A stretch of 56,421 bases of DNA from Acidobacteriota bacterium (GTDB lineage: Bacteria; Acidobacteriota; Holophagae; Holophagales; Holophagaceae). Positions within the stretch are counted from its first letter, which is position 1. Each line of letters begins with the position of its first letter. Shown here in pieces: positions 4,241-53,150 of the stretch. The notes under the pieces were generated by a model. It saw nothing but the letters and a program-made list of their open reading frames with translations. It did not search any database and had not been told where the DNA came from. The DNA is taken from the NCBI GenBank assembly GCA_005788175.1, contig SXYX01000009.1, forward strand, positions 1 to 56,421, written 5' to 3'. The translations under genes and the position numbers were made by a program.

Positions 4241-6772
<2,532 letters not shown>

Positions 6773-6812
6773 CTATACTCGCTTAACTCAAAGGGGTTTT
6801 TGAAATAAAGAA

Positions 6813-7946
6813 CTAGGCCGGGGTTGGGTTTGCGAAACGAACCGGCATCAAAATATAACGGAACGTGAATCCTTCGATACTTGGACTTGTAAACACGCCC
6901 TGACCAATTTCGTCTTTGAATTGATAGATTACATCCTCACCAGCGAGTCGATCTAGAATTTCAGTAAGATAGTCTATGTTGAAGGCTAACTCGAAAGACC
7001 GCTCCTCACCAGAGAATGGAAGTGTACTTTGGTTGGCGCCTTCATCGGGGTGTTGAAATATAATTTTTAGATTTGGATATTCAAACAATAATCGCACATT
7101 TTTGTTGTAGTCGTCTTTTTTTAGGCCCACAAAGCGGAGGTGTTTTAGTAAAAGCTCACGATCTATAAGGACTTTTTTGGGGAGCTCTTGTGGGATTACC
7201 TTCTCGTAAGCTGGGAAATTTCCTGTTACAAGACGGGTGGAGAACTTTAGGCCTGGTTGGTCAATAAAAAGCGTTGTTGTATCCCACGCGATAGTTACTT
7301 CTCCGTCGTTAGTTAGCAAAAGGGGGAATAGATCAAGGGCTCGACGTGGGACGACTAGTTTTACCTCTTCGTTTATTTTGGTTTCACAAGGTATCTCGGC
7401 AATAGCTAGTCGGAATCCATCTGTACTCACCAAACGAACGTTTGTTTTTTGAATGTGTAATAAAACAGCTGCCATGGTTGGTTTTGTAGTATCTCTACTA
7501 ACCGCTAGAGATGCGAGTCCAATGGCTTCTTTTAGTTTTTGTATTGGAAGTTTAGTTTGTGCCAAATCCCCTTTATTACCGGGTAGTTCAGGGTACCCCT
7601 CGCTTGATTGTATATTCTGTTCTGAGTTCATATCTTTTGCGCGAACCCATAGACGATTAACACTATCGGTTATCTCTAAAGTAAGCTCGGCGGTTGGAAA
7701 AGATTGTATGGTATCAATAAATTTACGACCAGGGATAGTAACAGACCAATCACCCTGACCTTCAATAGGGATAGTGGCCTCAAAAGACAAATCCATATCG
7801 GTAGCTTTTAAAACTAATTCTTTTCCATCACTTTTTAAGTAAATATATTGAAGAATTGGTAGAGTGACGCGACGATCTAAAGCATTTTTTAGAATGCCAA
7901 GAACTCTATTTAATCTTTCTTTGCCTATCTTTAATTGATAACTCAT
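6813..7946 (-). CDS. dnaN: DNA polymerase III sliding clamp (beta subunit)
   Basis: The 377-residue protein has the length and fold pattern of the beta clamp, a ring-forming dimer that tethers DNA polymerase III and many repair factors to DNA. The N-terminus has the conserved RRVTLPILQYIYLKSDG element. The C-terminus ends in the family's typical YILMPVRF hydrophobic segment, part of the partner-binding pocket. Its start faces the DnaA-box-rich spacer, so its promoter probably lies in the origin region. Unusually, a hydrolase gene and the origin-like spacer separate it from dnaA. Confidence 0.96.
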   Translation of the reverse strand: MSYQLKIGKERLNRVLGILKNALDRRVTLPILQYIYLKSDGKELVLKATDMDLSFEATIPIEGQGDWSVTIPGRKFIDTIQSFPTAELTLEITDSVNRLWVRAKDMNSEQNIQSSEGYPELPGNKGDLAQTKLPIQKLKEAIGLASLAVSRDTTKPTMAAVLLHIQKTNVRLVSTDGFRLAIAEIPCETKINEEVKLVVPRRALDLFPLLLTNDGEVTIAWDTTTLFIDQPGLKFSTRLVTGNFPAYEKVIPQELPKKVLIDRELLLKHLRFVGLKKDDYNKNVRLLFEYPNLKIIFQHPDEGANQSTLPFSGEERSFELAFNIDYLTEILDRLAGEDVIYQFKDEIGQGVFTSPSIEGFTFRYILMPVRFANPTPA

Positions 7947-8206
7947 TAATACACCTTGATGATGATGAGTGGGTGTGGAGATGTGGACTAAAACCCTAAG
8001 TCTTAATCTTACCTACAAAAGCACCAACTTAGACATGTGGGTTTCGTTGTGGATCCCTTATAAAATCAATGGTTTGATGGTTTTACTACCATCTATGAAA
8101 CCCCTTTATCAACAGGGTGTTTTCCATGGCGTGTGGAAAGGTGTTTAAACCCTAGTTTTTACAACACAAAGTGTCCCCAAAAACAAGCAATTAGGTGTGG
8201 AGAACT
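7947..8206. other. oriC: Probable chromosomal replication origin (oriC), DnaA-box cluster
   Basis: This 260-bp gene-free spacer beside dnaN holds repeated TGTGGA cores of the DnaA box (TTATCCACA / TGTGGATAA). They lie at 7974-7982 (TGTGGAGAT), 7982-7990 (TGTGGACTA), 8036-8044, 8048-8056 (TGTGGATCC), 8132-8140 and 8196-8204. A one-mismatch box TTATCAACA in the other orientation lies at 8106-8114. A TA-rich stretch around 8058-8105 could be the unwinding element. The neighbours dnaN, gyrBA, dnaA, rpmH-rnpA and two parS-like sites all support an origin. No box is a perfect consensus, so exact limits are uncertain. Confidence 0.72.
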
Positions 8207-9088
8207 TTATTTAATTGTTAACTTGATTTCCTTCGAGGTAGTTAAATTAACCAATTTACCCCCTGTATGTGTTTGGAAAAATAAATCAAGCAATTCAACC
8301 ACAAACCACTCGGGTTTTCTTGATAAACCAACCCCAGCTAAATTCATATGTGTGGCGCCTTCGATAACCCCTAACCACTTTTGTGTCCCTGGTTTCATGT
8401 TTTCAAAAGACCACAAACGGGTTCTCCAATCACTATCTAACCCATGGTCCTCTGTTCCTGTGATTAACAACATGGGTTTCTCAATCCCACTCCAAGCATT
8501 ATCTGGGAATAACAGCCCTGGCCCTTGGGGAGAAAGCGCGACATAGGCGTTAAATTGGTCTTTTCCTTCAATAAAAAGCCTACTTATGGCCCCCGCCTCG
8601 ATCATAACGGTTGCAGCACCCATGGAATGGCCCACAAGGATCCTGGGACCACCCACAATTCCCTTAGCCCAATTTAATACCTCCCGAATTTCCATCATTC
8701 GCCCTTGGTAGGACAGTGGATTGGTCACCATCTCCTCCAAGCCTTTTTTTAAACCCCGACCTTTAGTGTGCGCTCTTAGGGATTTAAGATTGCTTTCAAG
8801 GTGCTCCATGACACCAACCATGTAGCCCCGATTAGAAAAATAATCTGCTAAATAGCGGTAACCATTCTCACTCCCCCCCGCTCCCGGGGAGATCACCACA
8901 AGACCCAAAGGAGTTATTTTAGGTGTGTATGTTTTGAGTTTAAAAACTTTTCCATCGAGTCGCGTGAGTTGATGTGTCTTCATAAAATACGCCCGATCCA
9001 CTAGGCCCAGCTTGGTATTTATAGTTTTAAGCGGAGGCGGCTCTTGCCCTATTAACATTAACCCAAACCCAAGAAAATACCCTAACAT
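8207..9088 (-). CDS. Alpha/beta hydrolase, probably exported
   Basis: This 293-residue protein has the alpha/beta hydrolase triad in order: nucleophile serine in GHSMGAA (about residue 150), acid in TGTEDHGLD, and histidine in GATHMNLAG. An oxyanion-type SPGAGGS element precedes them. A short hydrophobic N-terminus (MLGYFLGFGLMLIG) suggests a signal peptide or anchor. It resembles PET-hydrolase-like or lipase-like predicted dienelactone hydrolases, but the substrate cannot be told. Its ATG directly follows the dnaA stop (TAA then ATG), so translation is probably coupled to dnaA. A hydrolase placed between dnaA and the origin spacer is an unusual arrangement. Confidence 0.85.
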   Translation of the reverse strand: MLGYFLGFGLMLIGQEPPPLKTINTKLGLVDRAYFMKTHQLTRLDGKVFKLKTYTPKITPLGLVVISPGAGGSENGYRYLADYFSNRGYMVGVMEHLESNLKSLRAHTKGRGLKKGLEEMVTNPLSYQGRMMEIREVLNWAKGIVGGPRILVGHSMGAATVMIEAGAISRLFIEGKDQFNAYVALSPQGPGLLFPDNAWSGIEKPMLLITGTEDHGLDSDWRTRLWSFENMKPGTQKWLGVIEGATHMNLAGVGLSRKPEWFVVELLDLFFQTHTGGKLVNLTTSKEIKLTIK

Positions 9089-10465
9089 TTAATACACCGT
9101 ATTCAACAAAGCATGAACTAATTTGTGAAAATCATTATCCTTTTTCATACGTTGTTTTACTGAATCAATTGCGTTCATTACAGTACTATGGTGCATATCA
9201 AATTCTTTAGCGATATCACTGTATGACGCCACCGATAGCTCTCGTGCCAAATACATAGCAACTTGTCGAGGAACCAAAATAGAAGCTTCTCGCCCTCTTT
9301 TTTTCTTGAGGTCTCCGTATGAAATATGAAATGATTCGGCCACAGATCGCAAAATACGCTCCATTGGTACAGCCCCTATCGGTTCATCGCCGTTTTGTCC
9401 CTGAAACGCACTTTGGGCGACCTCTAAAGAAGGACCTACCCTCATAAATTGAGCCTGGAAGATGACTCGATTGAGAAGACCCTCTAGATCACGGACACTG
9501 CCTTTGCCTCGATGCGCAATGAATCCAAGAACCTCATCGTCGATTTTTGGGGCATAAAGAAAATCGGGTTCTTCAAGTTTCTTTTTTAAAATTGCTATTC
9601 GTGTCTCAAAATCTGGTGGCTGAATATCTGCCGTTAACCCCCATTTAAAACGAGTTTTGAGTCTTTCATGAAGACCTTCAAGATGTTGCGGGGGTTTATC
9701 TGATGTGATTACAATTTGTTTCCCGTGCTGAAGAAGATACTCCAAAACATAAAAAATTTCTTCTTGTGTTCTTTCCATTCTCCCCAGGGTCTGAACATCA
9801 TCTAACAGGAGGACATCACAACCTTGATACTTCTTTCTTAGTGGCTCTGTGTTTCTTTTGCTTATAGCCGCAGTGACCTCATGAAAGAAACCATCGACCT
9901 TTAAATAGTGTAATTTTACACTCGGATCTTTATCTCGGATGGCTTGTCCGACCCCTACCATGAGGTGGGTTTTCCCCAGTCCAGACGAGCCATAAATAAA
10001 CAAAGGGTTCATATTAAAAGACGATGAACTTTTTCCAAAATGTTCGACCACAGAGTTAGCAGCCGCGAAAGCCAACTGGCTACTGGGTCCAACCACAAAG
10101 CGATCCAATGTGTAACGTGCGAATAAGCTCGGGAATGATATTTGAGGTTTTTCTAAAGAATCCGCCGGCAACACCGAGGGGCTAGTTGGTACTTGAAGCG
10201 ACCCAGAAATCTGAAAAACTAACTGCAAATGGGCTAAGTCTTCTTGGACTAATGCATCGTTAAATTCCTCGGCCAACTGTTGTTCGATCCATACTTTTGT
10301 AGATGCATTGGGGACCTGAATGTTCAAGGTATTGCCGTCACGCCTTATGGCAACACACGGGGAAACCCACTCTTGAAAACTTCCTACAGAAAGGCGACCT
10401 TGGATATTTTTTCGGATTAAGGCCCACAGCTCATGGGCGTCTTTTTCAACCGGGATAGCTTCCAT
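9089..10465 (-). CDS. dnaA: Chromosomal replication initiator DnaA
   Basis: DnaA binds DnaA boxes at oriC and opens the duplex. Domain I is the N-terminal ELW...SFQEW region. Domain III is an AAA+ ATPase with Walker A GSSGLGKTHL (about residue 158) and Walker B LLLDDVQ. Domain IV carries the DNA-binding signature around DIAKEFDMHHSTVMNAI. I place the start at the ATG at 10465 (458 residues) because AAGGA lies 5 bases upstream and a promoter at 10502-10530 predicts transcription starting just before it. An upstream in-frame start at 10501 would add 12 residues and leave almost no leader. Confidence 0.97.
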   Translation of the reverse strand: MEAIPVEKDAHELWALIRKNIQGRLSVGSFQEWVSPCVAIRRDGNTLNIQVPNASTKVWIEQQLAEEFNDALVQEDLAHLQLVFQISGSLQVPTSPSVLPADSLEKPQISFPSLFARYTLDRFVVGPSSQLAFAAANSVVEHFGKSSSSFNMNPLFIYGSSGLGKTHLMVGVGQAIRDKDPSVKLHYLKVDGFFHEVTAAISKRNTEPLRKKYQGCDVLLLDDVQTLGRMERTQEEIFYVLEYLLQHGKQIVITSDKPPQHLEGLHERLKTRFKWGLTADIQPPDFETRIAILKKKLEEPDFLYAPKIDDEVLGFIAHRGKGSVRDLEGLLNRVIFQAQFMRVGPSLEVAQSAFQGQNGDEPIGAVPMERILRSVAESFHISYGDLKKKRGREASILVPRQVAMYLARELSVASYSDIAKEFDMHHSTVMNAIDSVKQRMKKDNDFHKLVHALLNTVY

Positions 10466-10501
10466 TATTCCTTCTTCACGCGTGCGGGGCCCGAAGCCCA
10501 A

Positions 10502-10530
10502 ATTTACATAACCGACCGTAACAAATCAAA
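10502..10530 (-). promoter_or_regulatory. Candidate sigma-70 promoter of dnaA
   Basis: On the minus strand, TTGATT (10530-10525) and TAAATT (10507-10502) are separated by exactly 17 bases. Each matches its consensus hexamer at four of six positions. Transcription would begin near 10495, giving a leader of about 30 bases before the chosen dnaA ATG. A DnaA-box-like TTATCCCCC lies just upstream on the same strand (about 10534-10546), which could allow autoregulation. Confidence 0.5.
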
Positions 10531-10661
10531 CACGGGGGGATAACTACTTTATCACTAGGCTTGATATGGGTAGGAGGCTTTTTGATTGAGCTTTCAACCC
10601 CCTAATGGTAATCTCTAAAGTCCGCCTTCAAGAAGAACATTTAAAACAAACAAGGACGCCC

Positions 10662-10796
10662 ATGAAACGAACTTTTCAGCCTAATCGACGGCGAAGATCA
10701 AAAACTCACGGCTTTCTCACGCGTATGAAAACTAAGGGCGGGCGGCTGGTTTTAAAACGACGTCGCGCAAAAGGCCGCCATACAATAGCGCTATAA
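10662..10796 (+). CDS. rpmH: 50S ribosomal protein L34
   Basis: The 44-residue, very basic protein [18 protein letters not shown]... is a clear L34, ending with the usual [15 protein letters not shown] block. The ATG at 10662 has AAGGA about 5 bases upstream. An in-frame upstream start would add residues not found in the family. It begins the classic rpmH-rnpA-yidC-mnmE run and is divergent from dnaA across a 196-bp spacer, an order conserved in many bacteria. Confidence 0.97.
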
Positions 10797-10805
10797 AAAG
10801 ATTCT

Positions 10806-11153
10806 GTGGAATTTAAAAAAGCCTTTAGGACTGTTAGCCGAAGGGATAAGTTGGTGCTCATACCACCTCCTCTTGCGCAAAAGGATATATCCGTTGACAT
10901 TCGCAGCCTAAAAACAACAAATAGCTGCTCACCCCGCCTTCTTGTATCGGCCCCTAAGAGTTTTGGATCCGCTCCTGATCGCAACCACTTCAAGCGGATA
11001 GTTCGCCACGCCTTTCTCAGGGCTTTATCCCAACACACACTTTCAGCATCATGGGTGGTTTGGGTTCGCCCACTAAGGCACACTAAGAATACGACACCCC
11101 CGATCGACGAGATCACCCAATATTTTGTGAATCTTATTAAGAGGCTTAATTAA
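10806..11153 (+). CDS. rnpA: Ribonuclease P protein component
   Basis: This 115-residue basic protein helps RNase P RNA bind and cleave the 5' leader of precursor tRNAs. The diagnostic RNR-type motif is present as DRNHFKRIVRHAFL (about residues 60-73), and the N-terminal FRTVSRRDKL matches the family's FRxVxxxG-like start region. Translation appears to start at GTG 10806, 9 bases after rpmH. There is no yidD between rnpA and yidC, unlike many genomes. The start codon is the least certain part. Confidence 0.88.
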   Translation: MEFKKAFRTVSRRDKLVLIPPPLAQKDISVDIRSLKTTNSCSPRLLVSAPKSFGSAPDRNHFKRIVRHAFLRALSQHTLSASWVVWVRPLRHTKNTTPPIDEITQYFVNLIKRLN

Positions 11154-11155
11154 AC

Positions 11156-12703
11156 ATGCAAAACCGAAATATCTTATGGTTCACAATAGGCACCATAACA
11201 CTCCTAGTCCTTCAATTAATGGTCGCTAGAGTCTACACACCTGAGACCCAACCAATAAACACAAGCCCTCCAGTTAAGGCAATTATAAAACCGCCAATTC
11301 TACCTCCCCCAATTGTTGCCGCTAAATCAAGCCGGCCAGAATCAACGGGCGGCACCTTAAATATTTCCAACCAGGATCTTGAGGCCTCCTTCAGAAAAGA
11401 CACGGGGGCGCTCGTCCAAGTGAAATGGCTAAGGGACCAAACCCTTTTCTTCCCAAAATGGGGCTCTTCGGGCGCCGAAGATTTCCTAGGCTTGGGGGTA
11501 ACATCTAGGCCCTTTGATTCGTACCGTGAGGAGCAGAACCCATCAGGCAAGACTGTCGAATTCCTCAACAATCAAGGAGATCGCCTGGTTTGGGTAGTGC
11601 CGACTAAAGGCTACGTTTTAGAACTTATAGTGACAACCGCTGAACCTCAAACACTAACACTTATTCCACTACCGAAAACCATGGGCCCGGTGACCAATTT
11701 GGGGCGCGTATTTTCAATCGATGAAAATAAAGTTAACGAAACTCTGTGGAGCGATATTCTTACTGCACCCTTTTTTAGTTTTCTAGGGGACCAAAAAGAA
11801 GTACTACCTGTCGCCGCACAAAGAGTGGGGCTTGACGCAGGCCTCGAAGAAGGCAGTTCGTTTCAACCAATAAGCCACTACTTCGCTGCTGTTTGGAAGT
11901 CTACAACTGCACCCATTAGTGTTTCTGATGCAGGCTATACAATACAGACCACCCCTACGCCTACCACACTCCAGTTATTCACGGGCCCTAAAGAGCTGAG
12001 CGTGCTTGCGACTTTTGATACCATTTCGGCGCAAGCGGTTAGTTTCGGCTTTTTTGGGGCGATTGCCAAATGGATGTTTTATGCTTTAAAGGCCATTTAT
12101 TCACAAGTAGGTAATTGGGGTTGGTCGATTGTGGTTTTCACTTTAATTTTACGAGGCCTGCTGTGGTGGCCAAACACCAAGCAGACAATTTCAATGCTTC
12201 GCATGAAAGATTTTGAGCCACATCAACAAGCCCTCCAAGCTAAATATGAAAAATATGGTAACGATATGTCCAAAAAAGCCGAGATGCAGCGCGAATTAAT
12301 GGATCTGTACAGGAAAAATAACCACAGCCCCTTCGGTGGCTGTTTGCCGATGTTACTCCAAATGCCAATTTTATTTGCTTTGTGGTCAATGCTCCAGGCT
12401 GTCTTTGAATTGCGTAATGCTCCTTTTATAGGCTGGATTTCCAACTTATCTGCAAAAGATCCCTATTATGTTTTACCAGTTCTAATGGGCCTAGGAATGA
12501 TTGCACAAACTGCCATGACTCCTGCCATGGGTGACCCACAGCAAAGAAAAATAATGATGTTTTTGATGCCGGCCATGATGGTCTTTATCTTTGCACAATC
12601 TCCGGCGGGGCTTTGTCTATACTACACAGTGTTTACACTAATTGGCTTATTCCAAACCTGGTGGGTTAAGCGAACATATGTATCCCAACCGATTAAAACT
12701 TAA
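11156..12703 (+). CDS. yidC: Membrane protein insertase YidC
   Basis: YidC (515 residues) inserts and folds inner-membrane proteins, alone or with Sec. It has an N-terminal transmembrane anchor, a proline-rich linker (about residues 35-60), a large beta-rich periplasmic domain typical of diderm bacteria, and a C-terminal five-helix core from about residue 300. In the core, the conserved groove arginine is seen in LILRGLLWWP, and GGCLPMLLQMPILFALW is the family signature. It starts two bases after the rnpA stop. Confidence 0.97.
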   Translation: MQNRNILWFTIGTITLLVLQLMVARVYTPETQPINTSPPVKAIIKPPILPPPIVAAKSSRPESTGGTLNISNQDLEASFRKDTGALVQVKWLRDQTLFFPKWGSSGAEDFLGLGVTSRPFDSYREEQNPSGKTVEFLNNQGDRLVWVVPTKGYVLELIVTTAEPQTLTLIPLPKTMGPVTNLGRVFSIDENKVNETLWSDILTAPFFSFLGDQKEVLPVAAQRVGLDAGLEEGSSFQPISHYFAAVWKSTTAPISVSDAGYTIQTTPTPTTLQLFTGPKELSVLATFDTISAQAVSFGFFGAIAKWMFYALKAIYSQVGNWGWSIVVFTLILRGLLWWPNTKQTISMLRMKDFEPHQQALQAKYEKYGNDMSKKAEMQRELMDLYRKNNHSPFGGCLPMLLQMPILFALWSMLQAVFELRNAPFIGWISNLSAKDPYYVLPVLMGLGMIAQTAMTPAMGDPQQRKIMMFLMPAMMVFIFAQSPAGLCLYYTVFTLIGLFQTWWVKRTYVSQPIKT

Positions 12704-12736
12704 AGCGGCGGAAGAGCTAACGCACACTTAACCACA

Positions 12737-14056
12737 ATGACCCTCCCTATTTTTGCTTCTGCGACCCCACTTTTAAAATGCGCTGTTCACATTATTAGGG
12801 TCTCAGGCAATAATCTCGAAAAAGTCTTGGCACCGCTTTGTAAACTACCGCGCCCCAAAGAACTTCTTCGTCGAGACCTTAAATGGAGAGATGGAAAACA
12901 TAGCTTTCACGAGAGAGCGCTAGTGGTTTTTTCTCCTGCTCCACAAAGCTATACGGGAGAAGATTGTGTCGAGTTCCATCTTCACGGTAGCCCCCTTTTA
13001 GTTCAACGCTTTTCAGAACGTCTTTTGCAACTTGGCCTGCGCCTTGCGCGACCTGGAGAATTCACAGAACGCGCTCTTTTAAACGGCAAACAATCCCTGC
13101 TAGAAGTTGAAGCGCTTCAGGAGCTGATGGAAGCCGATACCGATCTCCAACTTCAACAAGCGCAAGCTCATCAAGGGGGGCTCCCCGCGTGGGTAACCAC
13201 CTTCCAAGCCGAGTTGGCTGGTTGGGTTGCACAGGCGGAAGCCACTGTCGATTACGGCGAGGATGAACACGTGTCGCTCGACGAGCATGCCCTGAAAGCG
13301 TGGGCGATAGCGTGGAGCGAGCAAGTACAACTTGAATATCAAAAAGCGCAAGCTGCACAATGGGTAAAAAAAGGAATCCATGTTGTTCTTGTGGGCCGAC
13401 CGAACGCCGGGAAAAGCTCCCTCTTTAATTATTTATTGAAAGATGAACGAGCAATTGTTTCTGACACACCAGGCACAACCCGGGACTATTTAGAAGGTCG
13501 CTCTGAATTAGGGGACCTTCCGTTAGTAATCTTTGATACGGCAGGTATTCGGTACGAGGCTGAGCAAATTGAACAGGCAGGCATTCTTAAAATTCACAAA
13601 CTGTTGCTCGAAGCTGACCTAATTCTTTATTTAATTCCTGCTCAAGATCGTTCGCCTGACCCCGCTACCGAAGCCCTTATCCAAGTCTTTAAGGCTAAAG
13701 TGATGAGAGTCAGTACTATGGTCGATCAAGGTGAACCCTGCCTTCCTACCGATTGTCATATTTCACTTCATCCGATCGCGACCAAAGGATTACAACAAGC
13801 TTTACATAATCGCTTCTTAGGACATCATCGCGCACAGGATCTTCACACCTCTTTTTGGAGAGACCGACATCTTCAACTACTCTTGAATATTATGGAAGCG
13901 CTACGTATTTTAGACAGCGCACCATCAGAAGCTCCAAGTGAAATTTACGCCTCCGCGCTCCAGAGTGCCTGGAGGCATCTCTGCCGTTTGACAGGGGCCG
14001 ATCCCGCCGAATCCTCCTTGGACGAAATGTTTAAAAGGTTCTGTCTAGGCAAATAA
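12737..14056 (+). CDS. mnmE: tRNA modification GTPase MnmE
   Basis: MnmE acts with MnmG to make the carboxymethylaminomethyl group on wobble U34 of certain tRNAs. The N-terminal folate-binding domain, helical domain and inserted G domain are all present. G1 is VGRPNAGKSS (about residue 219), G2 lies in DTPGTTRDY and G3 is DTAG. The C-terminal catalytic-cysteine motif FCLGK is intact. The G4 motif, normally NKxD, reads TMVD (residues 327-330), which is unusual. The N-terminus (ASATPLLKCAVHIIRVSG) is also more diverged than normal. It is likely co-transcribed with yidC, 33 bp upstream. Confidence 0.93.
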   Translation: MTLPIFASATPLLKCAVHIIRVSGNNLEKVLAPLCKLPRPKELLRRDLKWRDGKHSFHERALVVFSPAPQSYTGEDCVEFHLHGSPLLVQRFSERLLQLGLRLARPGEFTERALLNGKQSLLEVEALQELMEADTDLQLQQAQAHQGGLPAWVTTFQAELAGWVAQAEATVDYGEDEHVSLDEHALKAWAIAWSEQVQLEYQKAQAAQWVKKGIHVVLVGRPNAGKSSLFNYLLKDERAIVSDTPGTTRDYLEGRSELGDLPLVIFDTAGIRYEAEQIEQAGILKIHKLLLEADLILYLIPAQDRSPDPATEALIQVFKAKVMRVSTMVDQGEPCLPTDCHISLHPIATKGLQQALHNRFLGHHRAQDLHTSFWRDRHLQLLLNIMEALRILDSAPSEAPSEIYASALQSAWRHLCRLTGADPAESSLDEMFKRFCLGK

Positions 14057-14101
14057 TCTACCCTCAGCCCTAGGGTGTCCGTAAGGTCGGGATATTGTTT
14101 A

Positions 14102-14145
14102 TGTTCCAATCTGAACATCCATTGTTCTTTGATGAACAATGGATG
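14102..14145. repeat. Two TGTTC-N6-GAACA elements; the second forms a 12-bp hairpin
   Basis: Two 16-bp elements with arms TGTTC and GAACA lie side by side, at 14102-14117 (TGTTCCAATCTGAACA) and 14123-14138 (TGTTCTTTGATGAACA). The second extends to a perfect 12-bp inverted repeat with a 6-base loop, 14116-14145. The arms and spacing equal those of the parS-like sites at glyA, but the core is not parS. No T-run follows, so it is a weak intrinsic terminator for mnmE at best. Because it overlaps the -35 region of a possible gatB promoter, it may instead be an operator. Confidence 0.45.
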
Positions 14146-14151
14146 AGGGGG

Positions 14152-14160
14152 TGCTATAAA
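14152..14160 (+). promoter_or_regulatory. Candidate extended -10 promoter for gatB
   Basis: TGCTATAAA is an extended -10 element (TGn then TATAAA). It lies about 92 bases before the gatB start and just after a perfect 12-bp inverted repeat that covers its -35 region. No good -35 hexamer is seen, as is usual for extended -10 promoters. A weaker -10 (CATAAT) lies at 14217-14222. Confidence 0.35.
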
Positions 14161-14252
14161 ATGTCTCTCTGTCTATATGTTATCAGTTACACATTTTAGT
14201 CCCCAAGAGCCTGTTGCATAATTTCGCGAGGTAAACTAGGCATGGAGACCGC

Positions 14253-15707
14253 ATGTCAGTTACCTACCAAACTGTTATTGGCCTAGAGATACACACTCAG
14301 CTCAAAACTCAATCAAAGATGTTTTGTAGTTGCGCAAATATCTACGGCACCGAGCCCAATAGTGAGACCTGCCCCGTGTGCCTAGGTTTCCCGGGCGCCC
14401 TCCCGGCCATCAATCAAGAGGCAGTTAGGATGGCTGTTCGTCTCGGGCTAGCTCTAGAGGCAGAAATTACGCCCGAGAGTCTTTTCTATCGTAAGCATTA
14501 TTTTTATCCTGATTTACCCAAGGGCTTTCAAATTACACAAGGCCCCCGAGCGGTTATTGAGCGTGGCAAGGTGGTTATCGCCGGAGACACTTCTGTTCGC
14601 GACAACGCAGAACCTATCACGGTGGGCATTGAGCGCGCACACCTCGAGGAAGACTCCGGCAAAAGCCAACATAATGATCGCTATCAAGCAAGTTTAGTGG
14701 ATCTCAACCGGGCAGGGGTGCCTTTGCTTGAGATTGTGAGTGCCCCTGATCTTGCCTCCCCTCAAGAGGCATACGATTATCTCAAAACAATGCACCAACT
14801 TGTCACCTCTTTGGGTATTTGTGACGGCAACATGGAAGAGGGCTCTTTCCGTTGCGACGCGAATGTGAGTGTACGGCCGATAGGGCAAGCTCACTACGGC
14901 ATCCGCGTAGAAATAAAAAACCTCAACTCTTTTCGTTATGTGAAGCAAGCCCTTGAATATGAAGTTAAGCGGCATACCCAACTTTACGAAACGGGGCAAA
15001 CACCTGCCCAAGAAACCCGAGGATGGGATTCACAAACTAATCAAACCTATGCCCAGCGCAGCAAAGAAGCAGCGATGGATTATCGCTATTTCCCCGAACC
15101 CGATCTTCCACCTTTAGTGGTTACCCATCAAGACATTGAAGACGCGCGTCGGCTTCTTCCCGAATTACCGAAAGTACGGGCTGCGCGGTATCGACGGGAC
15201 TACCAACTGAGCGAGTACGATAGTGAGATGTTGGTATCTTCCCCTTCATTTTCAGAATATTTTGAAGCTCTAATCGCAGCGCGCGTTACCCCCAAGTCTG
15301 CCTGCACATGGATGCTGGGAGAAATGAGTCGGTTGCTTAATGAGCAAAATATTGACATCACAGCCCTAGGCCTTTCGCCGAGTCGCTTATCGGAACTGAT
15401 TCATTTAGTTGACGAAGGCGTGGTGACGCGAAGCAGCGCAAAAGAAAATGTACTACCCAAACTCTTGGGAAGCGACCTATCCTCAAAAGATATTGTGGCG
15501 CAAGAAGGCTTGGCCCAGATTTCAGATCTCGGGGCTATTCAAGCCTTGATTGAAGAGGTCCTTTTGGCTTCTCCCCAGCAATTGGCGCAATATCGGGCAG
15601 GCAAACTGAGTCTCAAAGGTTATTTTGTTGGTCAAGTGATGAAAAAAGGTAAAGGCCAACTGAATGCAACCGCCGTGAATTATCTTCTCGATGAGATACT
15701 CAAGTGA
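14253..15707 (+). CDS. gatB: Aspartyl/glutamyl-tRNA amidotransferase subunit B
   Basis: GatB (484 residues) is the tRNA-binding, amide-transferring subunit of GatCAB, which converts Glu-tRNA(Gln) or Asp-tRNA(Asn) into the correct amidated forms. The start VIGLEIHTQLKTQSKMFC is the family signature, followed by CPVCLGFPGALP, YPDLPKGFQITQ and EEDSGKS. The C-terminal YqeY-like tail ends in QLNATAVNYLLDEIL. gatA and gatC are not in the window. It stands 196 bp after mnmE with its own probable promoter and is followed at short distance by a trans-sulfuration gene. Confidence 0.97.
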   Translation: MSVTYQTVIGLEIHTQLKTQSKMFCSCANIYGTEPNSETCPVCLGFPGALPAINQEAVRMAVRLGLALEAEITPESLFYRKHYFYPDLPKGFQITQGPRAVIERGKVVIAGDTSVRDNAEPITVGIERAHLEEDSGKSQHNDRYQASLVDLNRAGVPLLEIVSAPDLASPQEAYDYLKTMHQLVTSLGICDGNMEEGSFRCDANVSVRPIGQAHYGIRVEIKNLNSFRYVKQALEYEVKRHTQLYETGQTPAQETRGWDSQTNQTYAQRSKEAAMDYRYFPEPDLPPLVVTHQDIEDARRLLPELPKVRAARYRRDYQLSEYDSEMLVSSPSFSEYFEALIAARVTPKSACTWMLGEMSRLLNEQNIDITALGLSPSRLSELIHLVDEGVVTRSSAKENVLPKLLGSDLSSKDIVAQEGLAQISDLGAIQALIEEVLLASPQQLAQYRAGKLSLKGYFVGQVMKKGKGQLNATAVNYLLDEILK

Positions 15708-50561: not shown

Positions 50562-51770
50562 CTAATCTTTTAGGAGCTCTCCCTCGCTGATCAGTTGACC
50601 ATTGATGACAGTGCCTGTGCAGCGAGTGGTCCATTCAAATGGATCACCAGAGAACAAGGCAATATCGCCATCTTTACCTACTTCCAGACTGCCGACACGC
50701 CCTTGAATTCCTAATAAACGGGCGGCTCCAAGTGTCAGTGTATAAATAGTCTGTTCCCAAGAGAGACCATTTCCAACCGCCATGGCTGCTTCCCAAAGAA
50801 CGACCCGTGTTTTAGGAACGTAAGCCTCAAACCCACTCTGAAAGATAAAGGGGATCCCTGCTTTGTAAAGAAGTGCGGGAGTTTCTAGATTTATATTCTC
50901 CATCTCTCCACGAGGATAGGCCATGAGTGGATGAATGATAATGGAAACACCCGATGCTTTAATTTCTCTTATCAATAGATGTGCATCAGCCGCACCGTCA
51001 AGAATAACTTGGATATTAAATTCCTTGCCTAGCCTTAGGACACCCATAATATCGATTGATTTGTGAGCGGTGATTAATAAGGGACGCTCGCGCTTAAGAA
51101 CCTGAATCAATGCCTCCATTCTGATATTTCGTTCTGGCCGTTGTTCTGCCTTGGCTATATCTACTTTGCGCATGTATGCCTGAGCAGACAACAGTTCAGA
51201 TCGGATCATAGCCATTGCTTTAGATCTTGTACCTGGCGCTTTCGTGCCTGCATTGCGTATAGAATCACCTAGCGTAGCGGCAATCATAGCTTCGGAAACT
51301 ATCACGGTTTCATCGATCGTATTACCTGTAGTTTTTGCAATAAGAGTTTGGCCACTAACCAGGGCGCCTGGTCCATGTCCGGTATGCACAGTGGTAATTC
51401 CACGATGAGCCAAGAATCTTACGAGAGGATCCTTTGGGTTATAGGCATCAATAGCTCGTAATTCTGGTTGAATAGGTGCCGAACGTTCAACTTGTTCCTG
51501 ATCATGACGCTGATTAAGTAAGCCAGAAAATCCAACCGTTGAGTGACCATCAATGATTCCAGGCATGGCGACGTTACCTTGAATAATTTTGATTCCCGCA
51601 GGCAACTTAATATCAGACGCCTTCCCGATAGCTTTAATTTTTCCTTTTTCAATGACGACGATTCCATCCGAAATCATGGATCCAGAGACGGTGTATAGTT
51701 TATCAGCCCTCACTGCAATGTCTTGTGCTGATAGTACGAGGGAAAATAAGGAAACTAAAATATATCGCAT
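50562..51770 (-). CDS. Exported amidohydrolase-like protein, probable pseudoenzyme
   Basis: The 402-residue protein has a signal peptide (LVSLFSLVLSAQ) and the amidohydrolase fold (VAMPGIIDGH, C-terminal VGSLEVGKDGDIALFSGDPF). It aligns along its length with its upstream neighbour but has lost metal ligands. HxH is H76-S-T. The strand-5 histidine stretch is ITAHKSIDI. The strand-6 histidines LHH are replaced by LDG, and the strand-8 Asp region HTDDP is replaced by QSGFEA. It is probably catalytically dead or has a new chemistry. Its ATG directly follows the neighbour's TAA, so both are made together and may form a mixed oligomer. Confidence 0.8.
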   Translation of the reverse strand: MRYILVSLFSLVLSAQDIAVRADKLYTVSGSMISDGIVVIEKGKIKAIGKASDIKLPAGIKIIQGNVAMPGIIDGHSTVGFSGLLNQRHDQEQVERSAPIQPELRAIDAYNPKDPLVRFLAHRGITTVHTGHGPGALVSGQTLIAKTTGNTIDETVIVSEAMIAATLGDSIRNAGTKAPGTRSKAMAMIRSELLSAQAYMRKVDIAKAEQRPERNIRMEALIQVLKRERPLLITAHKSIDIMGVLRLGKEFNIQVILDGAADAHLLIREIKASGVSIIIHPLMAYPRGEMENINLETPALLYKAGIPFIFQSGFEAYVPKTRVVLWEAAMAVGNGLSWEQTIYTLTLGAARLLGIQGRVGSLEVGKDGDIALFSGDPFEWTTRCTGTVINGQLISEGELLKD

Positions 51771-53084
51771 TTAAAGGTCCTCGCTTTCGTGCTCAAGCAA
51801 ATCGGTATGATCCATAGTGTCCATAGCGGCACCTACACCCCCTGTTGCAAATTTACGATCCGAAGGGTCAAGCCGATTGAATACCCGTTGACCTTCTACC
51901 CATGTTTCTTGAATTTTGGTATACACGCTAAAAGGATCTCCTGATAAAACAAGTAAATCTGCGTCTTTGCCGATTGCCAAACTGCCCACCCGTTTATCGA
52001 GTCCTACAAGTTTGGCATTATTGATTGTCATAGCCTTCAAGGATTCATTTCTTGTCATGCCGTATCGAATAGCCAAGGCTCCCGATCGCAAGAACCACCT
52101 TGAATCTGTTATGGGGTCATCTGTATGGAATCCACACAGAACTCCCGCTTTTTCTAGCGAAGCACCGTTTGAAAAACGTATTTCTTTCGTTTCAAGTTTT
52201 CCACCTGGACTATCTACGATGATAATACTTGCACCGATAACCCCATCGCCTGCAGCTTTAATTTCATCCGCCACAGCCCATGCTTCGGAGACATGGTGCA
52301 AGACTACCCTAAAGCCAAATTCTTTTTGTAAACGTAGGACAGTTATGATGTCGTCATGACGATGTGTATGATGATGTACGGTTCGTTTTCCCTCAATCAC
52401 TTCTACCAAAGCCTCCATACCAAGATCACGGGCAGGGAGTTTATTGGCATCTCCTGCGGCCAATTTAATTTTGGCTTGGTAAGCTTGTGCTTTAATAAAT
52501 TGTTCTCTTACGAGAGAAGCACTTTTAGATCGTGTTCCTGGGAAATTGCCTGCTTCTCGACGGGAGTTAGTTCCGTTCGCCATCTTCATACCACCCAAAT
52601 ATCCATGGGCTGTTTTTTCGACAGCTAATTCATCGATTGTAGTTCCCCTGCGTAATTTTAGATAAACCGTTTGGCCAGAGAGAAGATGGCCTGATCCCGG
52701 CATAACATTAACGGTAGTAATGCCACCAGCTTGTGCACGTCGTATCGATGTATTTTCTACATTAATAGAATCTGAAATTCGGATTTCTGGTTGAATAGGT
52801 GCGCTTGCATCAGCTCCTTCACCTGATCCGATATGCGAATGACTATCGACTAGTCCTGGCATAATGACTTGGCCTTTTAAATCATTAATCTGAGCATCTG
52901 CAGGGATCGAAATATTATTACCAAGACCTATAATTTTTCCTCCTTTGATAATAAGAGTTCCTTTTGCTAGATCCGCTCCTTCTATGGGAATAATATAGGC
53001 GTTAGTGAAAGCAATAGGCCGTTCTTGGGCCATCATTCCTAAACAGATCCCAATTAGCAGAGCGGTCAAACGAGATTTATACAT
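51771..53084 (-). CDS. Exported metal-dependent amidohydrolase
   Basis: The 437-residue protein has a signal peptide (LTALLIGICLGMMAQ) and an imidazolonepropionase-like amidohydrolase fold. Metal ligands are intact: HSH at residues 84-86 (VDSHSHIG), HHTHRHDD, LHHVSEA, and the Asp in HTDDP. The C-terminus returns to the beta-sandwich (VGSLAIGKDADLLVLSGDPF) and ends in an acidic His-containing tail (MDTMDHTDLLEHESEDL). The substrate is unknown; peptides or cyclic amides are usual for the family. The ATG at 53084 has AGGTG upstream. A GTG two codons earlier is less likely. It is directly followed by its degenerate paralogue. Confidence 0.88.
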   Translation of the reverse strand: MYKSRLTALLIGICLGMMAQERPIAFTNAYIIPIEGADLAKGTLIIKGGKIIGLGNNISIPADAQINDLKGQVIMPGLVDSHSHIGSGEGADASAPIQPEIRISDSINVENTSIRRAQAGGITTVNVMPGSGHLLSGQTVYLKLRRGTTIDELAVEKTAHGYLGGMKMANGTNSRREAGNFPGTRSKSASLVREQFIKAQAYQAKIKLAAGDANKLPARDLGMEALVEVIEGKRTVHHHTHRHDDIITVLRLQKEFGFRVVLHHVSEAWAVADEIKAAGDGVIGASIIIVDSPGGKLETKEIRFSNGASLEKAGVLCGFHTDDPITDSRWFLRSGALAIRYGMTRNESLKAMTINNAKLVGLDKRVGSLAIGKDADLLVLSGDPFSVYTKIQETWVEGQRVFNRLDPSDRKFATGGVGAAMDTMDHTDLLEHESEDL

Positions 53085-53150
53085 AGGCACCTCAGCGCAA
53101 AGTCTATGCTTTATATCCTACATAAGCAACAAGATAATGCGATCCGTTTT

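Follow-up and report, generated by a model that had tools for sequence, protein, structure and literature searches.

A conserved tandem pair of apparently exported amidohydrolases, one with a complete and one with a degenerate metal site

Why would a bacterium keep, directly behind a gene for an apparently intact amidohydrolase, a homologous gene whose product has lost the residues of the metal site? The question is raised by two genes on the minus strand of a 56,421-nucleotide stretch of an Acidobacteriota genome (contig SXYX01000009.1, hereafter the window), which are called A (upstream) and B (directly downstream) here, and whose products had been proposed in a preliminary description to form an enzyme/pseudoenzyme heteromer in the envelope. 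Both open reading frames are intact and no base lies between them: the stop codon TAA of A (51773-51771) is followed at once by the start codon ATG of B (51770-51768), just as that description had read the junction. The positions of all features are collected in Table 1, in which the residue numbers of A take the ATG at 53084 as their start (a GTG at 53090 lies in the same frame and could be the start instead). Among the 133 pairs fetched from relatives with both genes intact, B starts at -4 relative to the end of A in 69 and at -1 in 42, that is, with an overlap of four or one bases, which suggests translational coupling of A and B; because of the gene overlap, the two would also be co-expressed. 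The window neighbours were considered as a source of functional clues and set aside, as ribF and the genes for a Methyltransf_28 protein and a DnaC-like ATPase are unrelated genes of the housekeeping type.

Table 1. Features of the A/B pair and related loci. Coordinates refer to the window unless a locus is named; counts refer to the conservation set of 106 A and the matching 106 B.
Feature	Position	Strand	Description
Gene A	51771..53084	minus	437 aa, apparently exported amidohydrolase with complete metal-ligand set
Gene B	50562..51770	minus	402 aa, apparently exported degenerate paralogue of A
Junction TAA|ATG	51768..51773	minus	A stop, then B start
A signal peptide MYKSRLTALLIGICLGMMAQ	53025..53084	minus	predicted from sequence
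A HSH (H82, H84)	52833..52841	minus	end of strand 1, 106/106
A K167 (GMKMANGTN)	52584..52586	minus	strand 4, 106/106
A H239	52368..52370	minus	strand 5, 106/106
A H264	52293..52295	minus	strand 6, 106/106
A D322	52119..52121	minus	strand 8, 106/106
B signal peptide MRYILVSLFSLVLSAQ	51723..51770	minus	predicted from sequence
B HST (H76-S-T78)	51537..51545	minus	replaces HSH; second His absent in all B (Val 64, Thr 39 of 106)
B R121 position	51406-51410		Ala or Ser in window genus
B H132 (HTGHGP)	51375..51377	minus	end of strand 2, B-specific, 104/106
B T234	51069..51071	minus	replaces strand-5 His (Thr 91, Asn 9 of 106)
B D258-G259	50994..50999	minus	replaces strand-6 His (Gly 92, Ser 13; D258 102/106)
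B H280	50931..50933	minus	end of strand 7, B-specific, 106/106
B R285 position	50916-50918		Tyr in window genus
B QSGFE (Q311-E315)	50826..50840	minus	replaces HTD of strand 8 (E315 106/106, Q311 103/106)
B K320 (YVPKTR)	50811..50813	minus	B-specific, Asp in A, 106/106
Second pair	L034 (G001:C30) 491-1888 and 3-509	minus	also in L035 (G002:C2)
Five-gene array	L057 (G058:C4) 6673-14370
S10 gene example	L118:4567-6102		directly after pair
Histidine kinase gene example	L164:1462-3222	as the pair	upstream of pair

Conservation was analysed in 106 A and the matching 106 B from five phyla (B below 90% identity). Every ligand of the amidohydrolase pattern is present in A, namely HxH, the lysine of strand 4, the histidines of strands 5 and 6 and the aspartate of strand 8, and the motif HSH, the later histidines and the aspartate, which A had been said to keep, are invariant throughout the set (H82, H84, H239, H264 and D322). 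K167 we take to be the probable carboxylated bridging lysine, by analogy with the amidohydrolase family. With this full ligand set, A is predicted to be a metal-dependent hydrolase. Alignment of B with A (37% identity over 385 columns) recovered the replacements that had been read in the downstream gene as HST, LDG and QSGF, in the form of H76-S-T78, D258-G259 and Q311-S-G-F-E315. The first histidine of the motif (H76) is kept in 83 of the 106 B and is an arginine in 22. Two changes go beyond the preliminary description: the lysine of strand 4 (K167 in A) has gone as well, its column being variable across the 106 B, and D322 of A corresponds, after a two-residue insertion, to a glutamate (E315) in B. 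Since this invariant E315 takes the place of D322, the strand-8 acid was altered and not simply lost. The earlier label "metal-site-less" is correct in that the canonical site is lost throughout the B clade, but it applies to the ancestral site only, because conserved histidine, glutamate, lysine and aspartate residues surround the old pocket of B.

Comparison with Pfam placed A in PF01979 (73 bits, cut-off 25) and PF07969 (82 bits, cut-off 29.7), and both models were also above cut-off for B, over its C-terminal part. Since no NCBIfam function model came near its cut-off (the Xaa-Pro dipeptidase model NF051886 requires 500 bits, and A scored 74 and B 42), the substrate is unreadable from annotation; a PHROGs search gave nothing useful. 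The relatives with known activity found by similarity search are prolidase-type peptidases and carboxypeptidases. The closest solved sequence to both proteins is 3OOQ (E-value 1e-65 for A and 3e-42 for B), an uncharacterised amidohydrolase of Thermotoga maritima, which resembles A in that its deposited sequence contains the ligand pattern and differs from the A/B pair in being deposited as a single protein. A literature search for TM0814, 3OOQ and amidohydrolase pseudoenzymes found no description. The AF2 model of B (pLDDT 86, pTM 0.87) matched 3OOQ with a TM score of 0.86-0.91 and an rmsd of 2.2-2.5, far ahead of any other structure, so the amidohydrolase fold is kept in the downstream copy, as had been supposed. 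The equal length also supposed for the two proteins is only roughly right (437 vs 402 aa), as B lacks the conserved C-terminal tail of A. By descent and fold, as judged from its sequence and model, B is a member of the amidohydrolase superfamily, but it lacks the canonical ligands of an active one.

The next question is whether B is merely a relic. Pairwise dN/dS values (NG86) across relatives were 0.03-0.26 for B and 0.02-0.24 for A, with several synonymous distances saturated, and gave no sign of relaxed selection in B, which shows 46-80% identity across long evolutionary distances and has invariant residues of its own; the statement that the downstream copy is under selection therefore stands. 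Frame breaks in B of relatives were found in only two genomes, both metagenome-assembled (L056, which equals L200, and L131). These breaks, together with the loss of R121 and R285 in the genus of the window, are what could be cited for a decaying duplicate kept by chance, or for an artefact, but dN/dS is far below 1, 133 intact pairs were found, the conservation spans five phyla, and the contig of L056 is a 4.6-kb piece of a fragmented assembly. Decay is refuted by the conservation and the low dN/dS, and we regard it as scarcely credible. The pair has stayed together, with an unchanged gene order, in five phyla or more, so that B almost certainly works as a partner of A and is no relic. The distances of A and of B correlate (r = 0.82), a correlation that shared descent alone could also produce.

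The distribution of the two genes was analysed in 396 Acidobacteriota genomes sampled evenly from the phylum, with A called at E < 1e-90. Sixty-five genomes carry A, in one copy each, and all 65 also carry B; comparison of the A and B match lists revealed no genome among the 396 with B and without A. The pair occurs in 31 of 210 genera, and neither gene is found in most members of one genus from the family of the window. Because this presence is patchy yet joint, even inside one family, A and B are gained or lost as one. Named genomes gave more than 500 matches to A, of which the 80 best were inspected, a choice that samples close relatives: B lies directly after A on 77 of these 80 contigs, and the remaining three contigs break off within some 200 bases of A (46 contigs from Acidobacteriota, 17 from Planctomycetota, 14 from Verrucomicrobiota, one each from Pseudomonadota and Bacteroidota, and one unplaced). 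All 133 fetched pairs with both genes intact have B directly downstream of A on the same strand, an order that rules out chance adjacency. In all genomes examined, then, the downstream copy is linked to the upstream gene (65/65, with the order kept in 133/133). Five phyla, including the cultured species Geothrix limicola and Pseudofulvimonas gallinarii, carry A and B, so the pair is open to testing.

Both proteins look exported. Each N-terminus in the window resembles a signal peptide ending in AQ, in line with the earlier reading, and for A a hydrophobic N-terminal stretch, most often ending in AxAQ-like motifs, was found in 100 of 105 relatives, and likewise for B in 100 of 105.

Besides what it has lost, B has residues of its own. 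H280, E315, Y317, K320, R322 and E327 are invariant in all 106 B, and T130, H132, D258 and Q311 are nearly so across the five phyla. In total, 27 positions are conserved in at least 95% of B with a different residue in A, and 15 of them lie at the ends of the barrel strands or in the next 12 residues (26% expected, P-value = 0.0007; strand ends were taken from the predicted model, with one choice of window, and an 8-residue window gave P-value = 0.003). Positions conserved in both A and B showed no enrichment at strand ends. Own invariant residues at the catalytic face imply that B is constrained for something besides the ancestral metal chemistry, and both the sequences and the model indicate that this face is rebuilt and then held, not drifting.

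To what extent the arrangement is shared by the wider family was judged from loci gathered by similarity to B, a sample that is biased towards degenerate members. Some of these loci pair a complete gene with a degenerate one in tandem. Fusions of 834 aa have all ligands in the first domain and lack them in the second, and most adjoin a further degenerate gene; the order is reversed in proteins of about 900-1100 aa (L065-L070), in which a degenerate domain precedes a complete one beside a degenerate gene of about 450 aa, giving three amidohydrolase domains at the locus of which one is complete. At another locus five adjacent amidohydrolase genes, one of them a two-domain fusion, mix complete and degenerate domains (Table 1). 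A second exported pair, with a degenerate gene (no HxH) first and an HSH-bearing gene next, was seen in two congeners, where it is cut by the contig end; the genome of the window, which is incomplete, did not show it. In the phylogenetic tree, all A form one clade and all B another (support 100 each), B stands weakly beside A (78), and the other degenerate domains fall in separate clades. Because B forms a single clade with support 100, its metal site was lost once and long ago. Across the family, parsimony needs two changes in the metal site on the unrooted tree if regain is allowed, and about seven separate degenerate clades are counted without regain. The model of a natural 834-aa fusion reached a pTM of 0.84 from only 11 sequences, which exceeds what is expected of two independently placed domains and suggests a fixed domain arrangement.

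The two genes are adjacent homologues, one live and one dead by sequence, and they co-occur strictly. We think it fairly probable that A and B assemble as the two subunits of a single exported amidohydrolase and so form an obligate enzyme/pseudoenzyme heteromer of the envelope. A would be the catalytic subunit, a metal-dependent hydrolase of the 3OOQ branch, with small peptide-like compounds or other amides as its probable substrates in the periplasm. B, derived from an ancient copy of the same barrel that lost its metal site once, would be its obligate non-catalytic partner, translated from the message of A, assembling with A, and serving as a structural, substrate-gating or ligand-binding subunit. 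The best indirect support for a complex comes from the modelled natural fusions of such domains, which belong to a different branch, so that their assembly may differ from that of A and B. Two points count against the heteromer: operon linkage is also compatible with two enzymes of one pathway, and 15 of 27 positions at the catalytic face exceed the needs of a purely structural subunit.

An alternative is that B works as an enzyme in its own right, its active site rebuilt either without metal or around a new metal site (residues such as H132, D258, H280 and E315), and takes as substrate what A produces or a related compound. In its favour, neighbouring genes of an operon often catalyse successive steps, and B has invariant and near-invariant residues, with the B-specific ones enriched at strand ends. 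But among these positions only E315 is a standard ligand position, H76 has become arginine in 22 of 106 B, the degenerate partners of other branches lack B's residue set, and we know of no amidohydrolase that uses it; we consider a second enzyme unlikely. The conserved pocket-face residues would also suit a separate envelope protein that binds or senses the substrate or product of A through the old pocket without a stable complex with A, and a histidine kinase gene upstream of the pair in many loci of Blastocatellia type (38 loci) would fit such sensing. This kinase does not occur in the window and is found in part of the phylum only; the strict one-to-one linkage and the translational coupling are more in keeping with a stoichiometric complex, and we regard a separate binding protein as quite improbable. 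A broader proposal has two parts, that the pocket of B, rebuilt around H132, D258, H280, Q311, E315 and K320, binds a ligand or metal or contributes residues to the active site of A, and that pairing of complete with degenerate domains is the general rule among the exported proteins of the 3OOQ-like branch, one at which evolution arrived several times, through tandem genes as well as through fusion; we put it forward as a tentative possibility, on balance rather doubtful.

Pairs of live and dead homologous subunits are known from other families. The CRMP proteins (dihydropyrimidinase-related proteins) have the amidohydrolase fold without a metal site and gave weak sequence matches to B, but they are eukaryotic and cytosolic and are not known to be encoded beside a live paralogue. 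In M16B heterodimers such as SPH2681/SPH2682, TTHA1264/TTHA1265 and mitochondrial MPP, one subunit has the zinc motif and its homologue does not, yet neither can be spared; TTHA1264 and TTHA1265 are encoded side by side (PMC12731061). Fold and zinc motif are unrelated to those of A and B, and the M16B structures are solved, whereas A is known from its sequence and B from its sequence and a model. The pseudo-dihydroorotase (pDHO) of Pseudomonas ATCase resembles B as an amidohydrolase-fold pseudoenzyme without zinc ligands on which its partner depends: ATCase by itself has no activity and regains it with pDHO (PMC7053772). Unlike B, it is cytoplasmic, belongs to another branch of the superfamily, and has as partner an unrelated transcarbamoylase and not a live paralogue. 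Metal-dependent bile salt hydrolases (a 2026 preprint) were considered as a parallel and rejected as a different, single-subunit case. What sets A and B apart from these cases is that each partner is an amidohydrolase, that each appears to be exported, and that such an arrangement is found repeatedly across a branch of the family. No paper describing the A/B pair was found in a literature search that had most subscription journals outside its reach. Annotation labels both genes as plain amidohydrolases, which hides the loss of the known metal site in B; if A needs B, an assay without B would mislead, making A look inactive or pointing to a wrong substrate. The wider group, with tandem pairs, fusions in either order and triplets, offers a natural series for studying how an enzyme may become dependent on its own dead copy.

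Other genes accompany the pair in some relatives. In about 24 loci from Acidobacteriota the pair is directly followed, often at a distance of no more than 10 bases, by a gene for a secreted serine carboxypeptidase (S10), and all placeable S10 loci belong to one family-level group of the phylum. The histidine kinase encoded upstream is a membrane protein. Neither gene was found in the window and S10 is confined to one group, so these neighbours are weak hints; the S10 neighbour and the prolidase-type relatives weakly point to peptide breakdown.

Genomes of the window's genus are about 0.9-1.2 Mb in size, while those of its family are mostly 2-5 Mb, and the pair is kept in 3/3 genomes of this reduced-genome genus. 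Arginine is present at R121 and R285 of B in nearly all relatives and is replaced at both positions in the window's genus (Table 1). Between the window and a congener, dN/dS (NG86) is 0.07 for B and 0.03 for A, so that B evolves about twice as fast, with dS saturated. Because of the lost arginines and the faster evolution of B, its role may be slightly altered in this genus.
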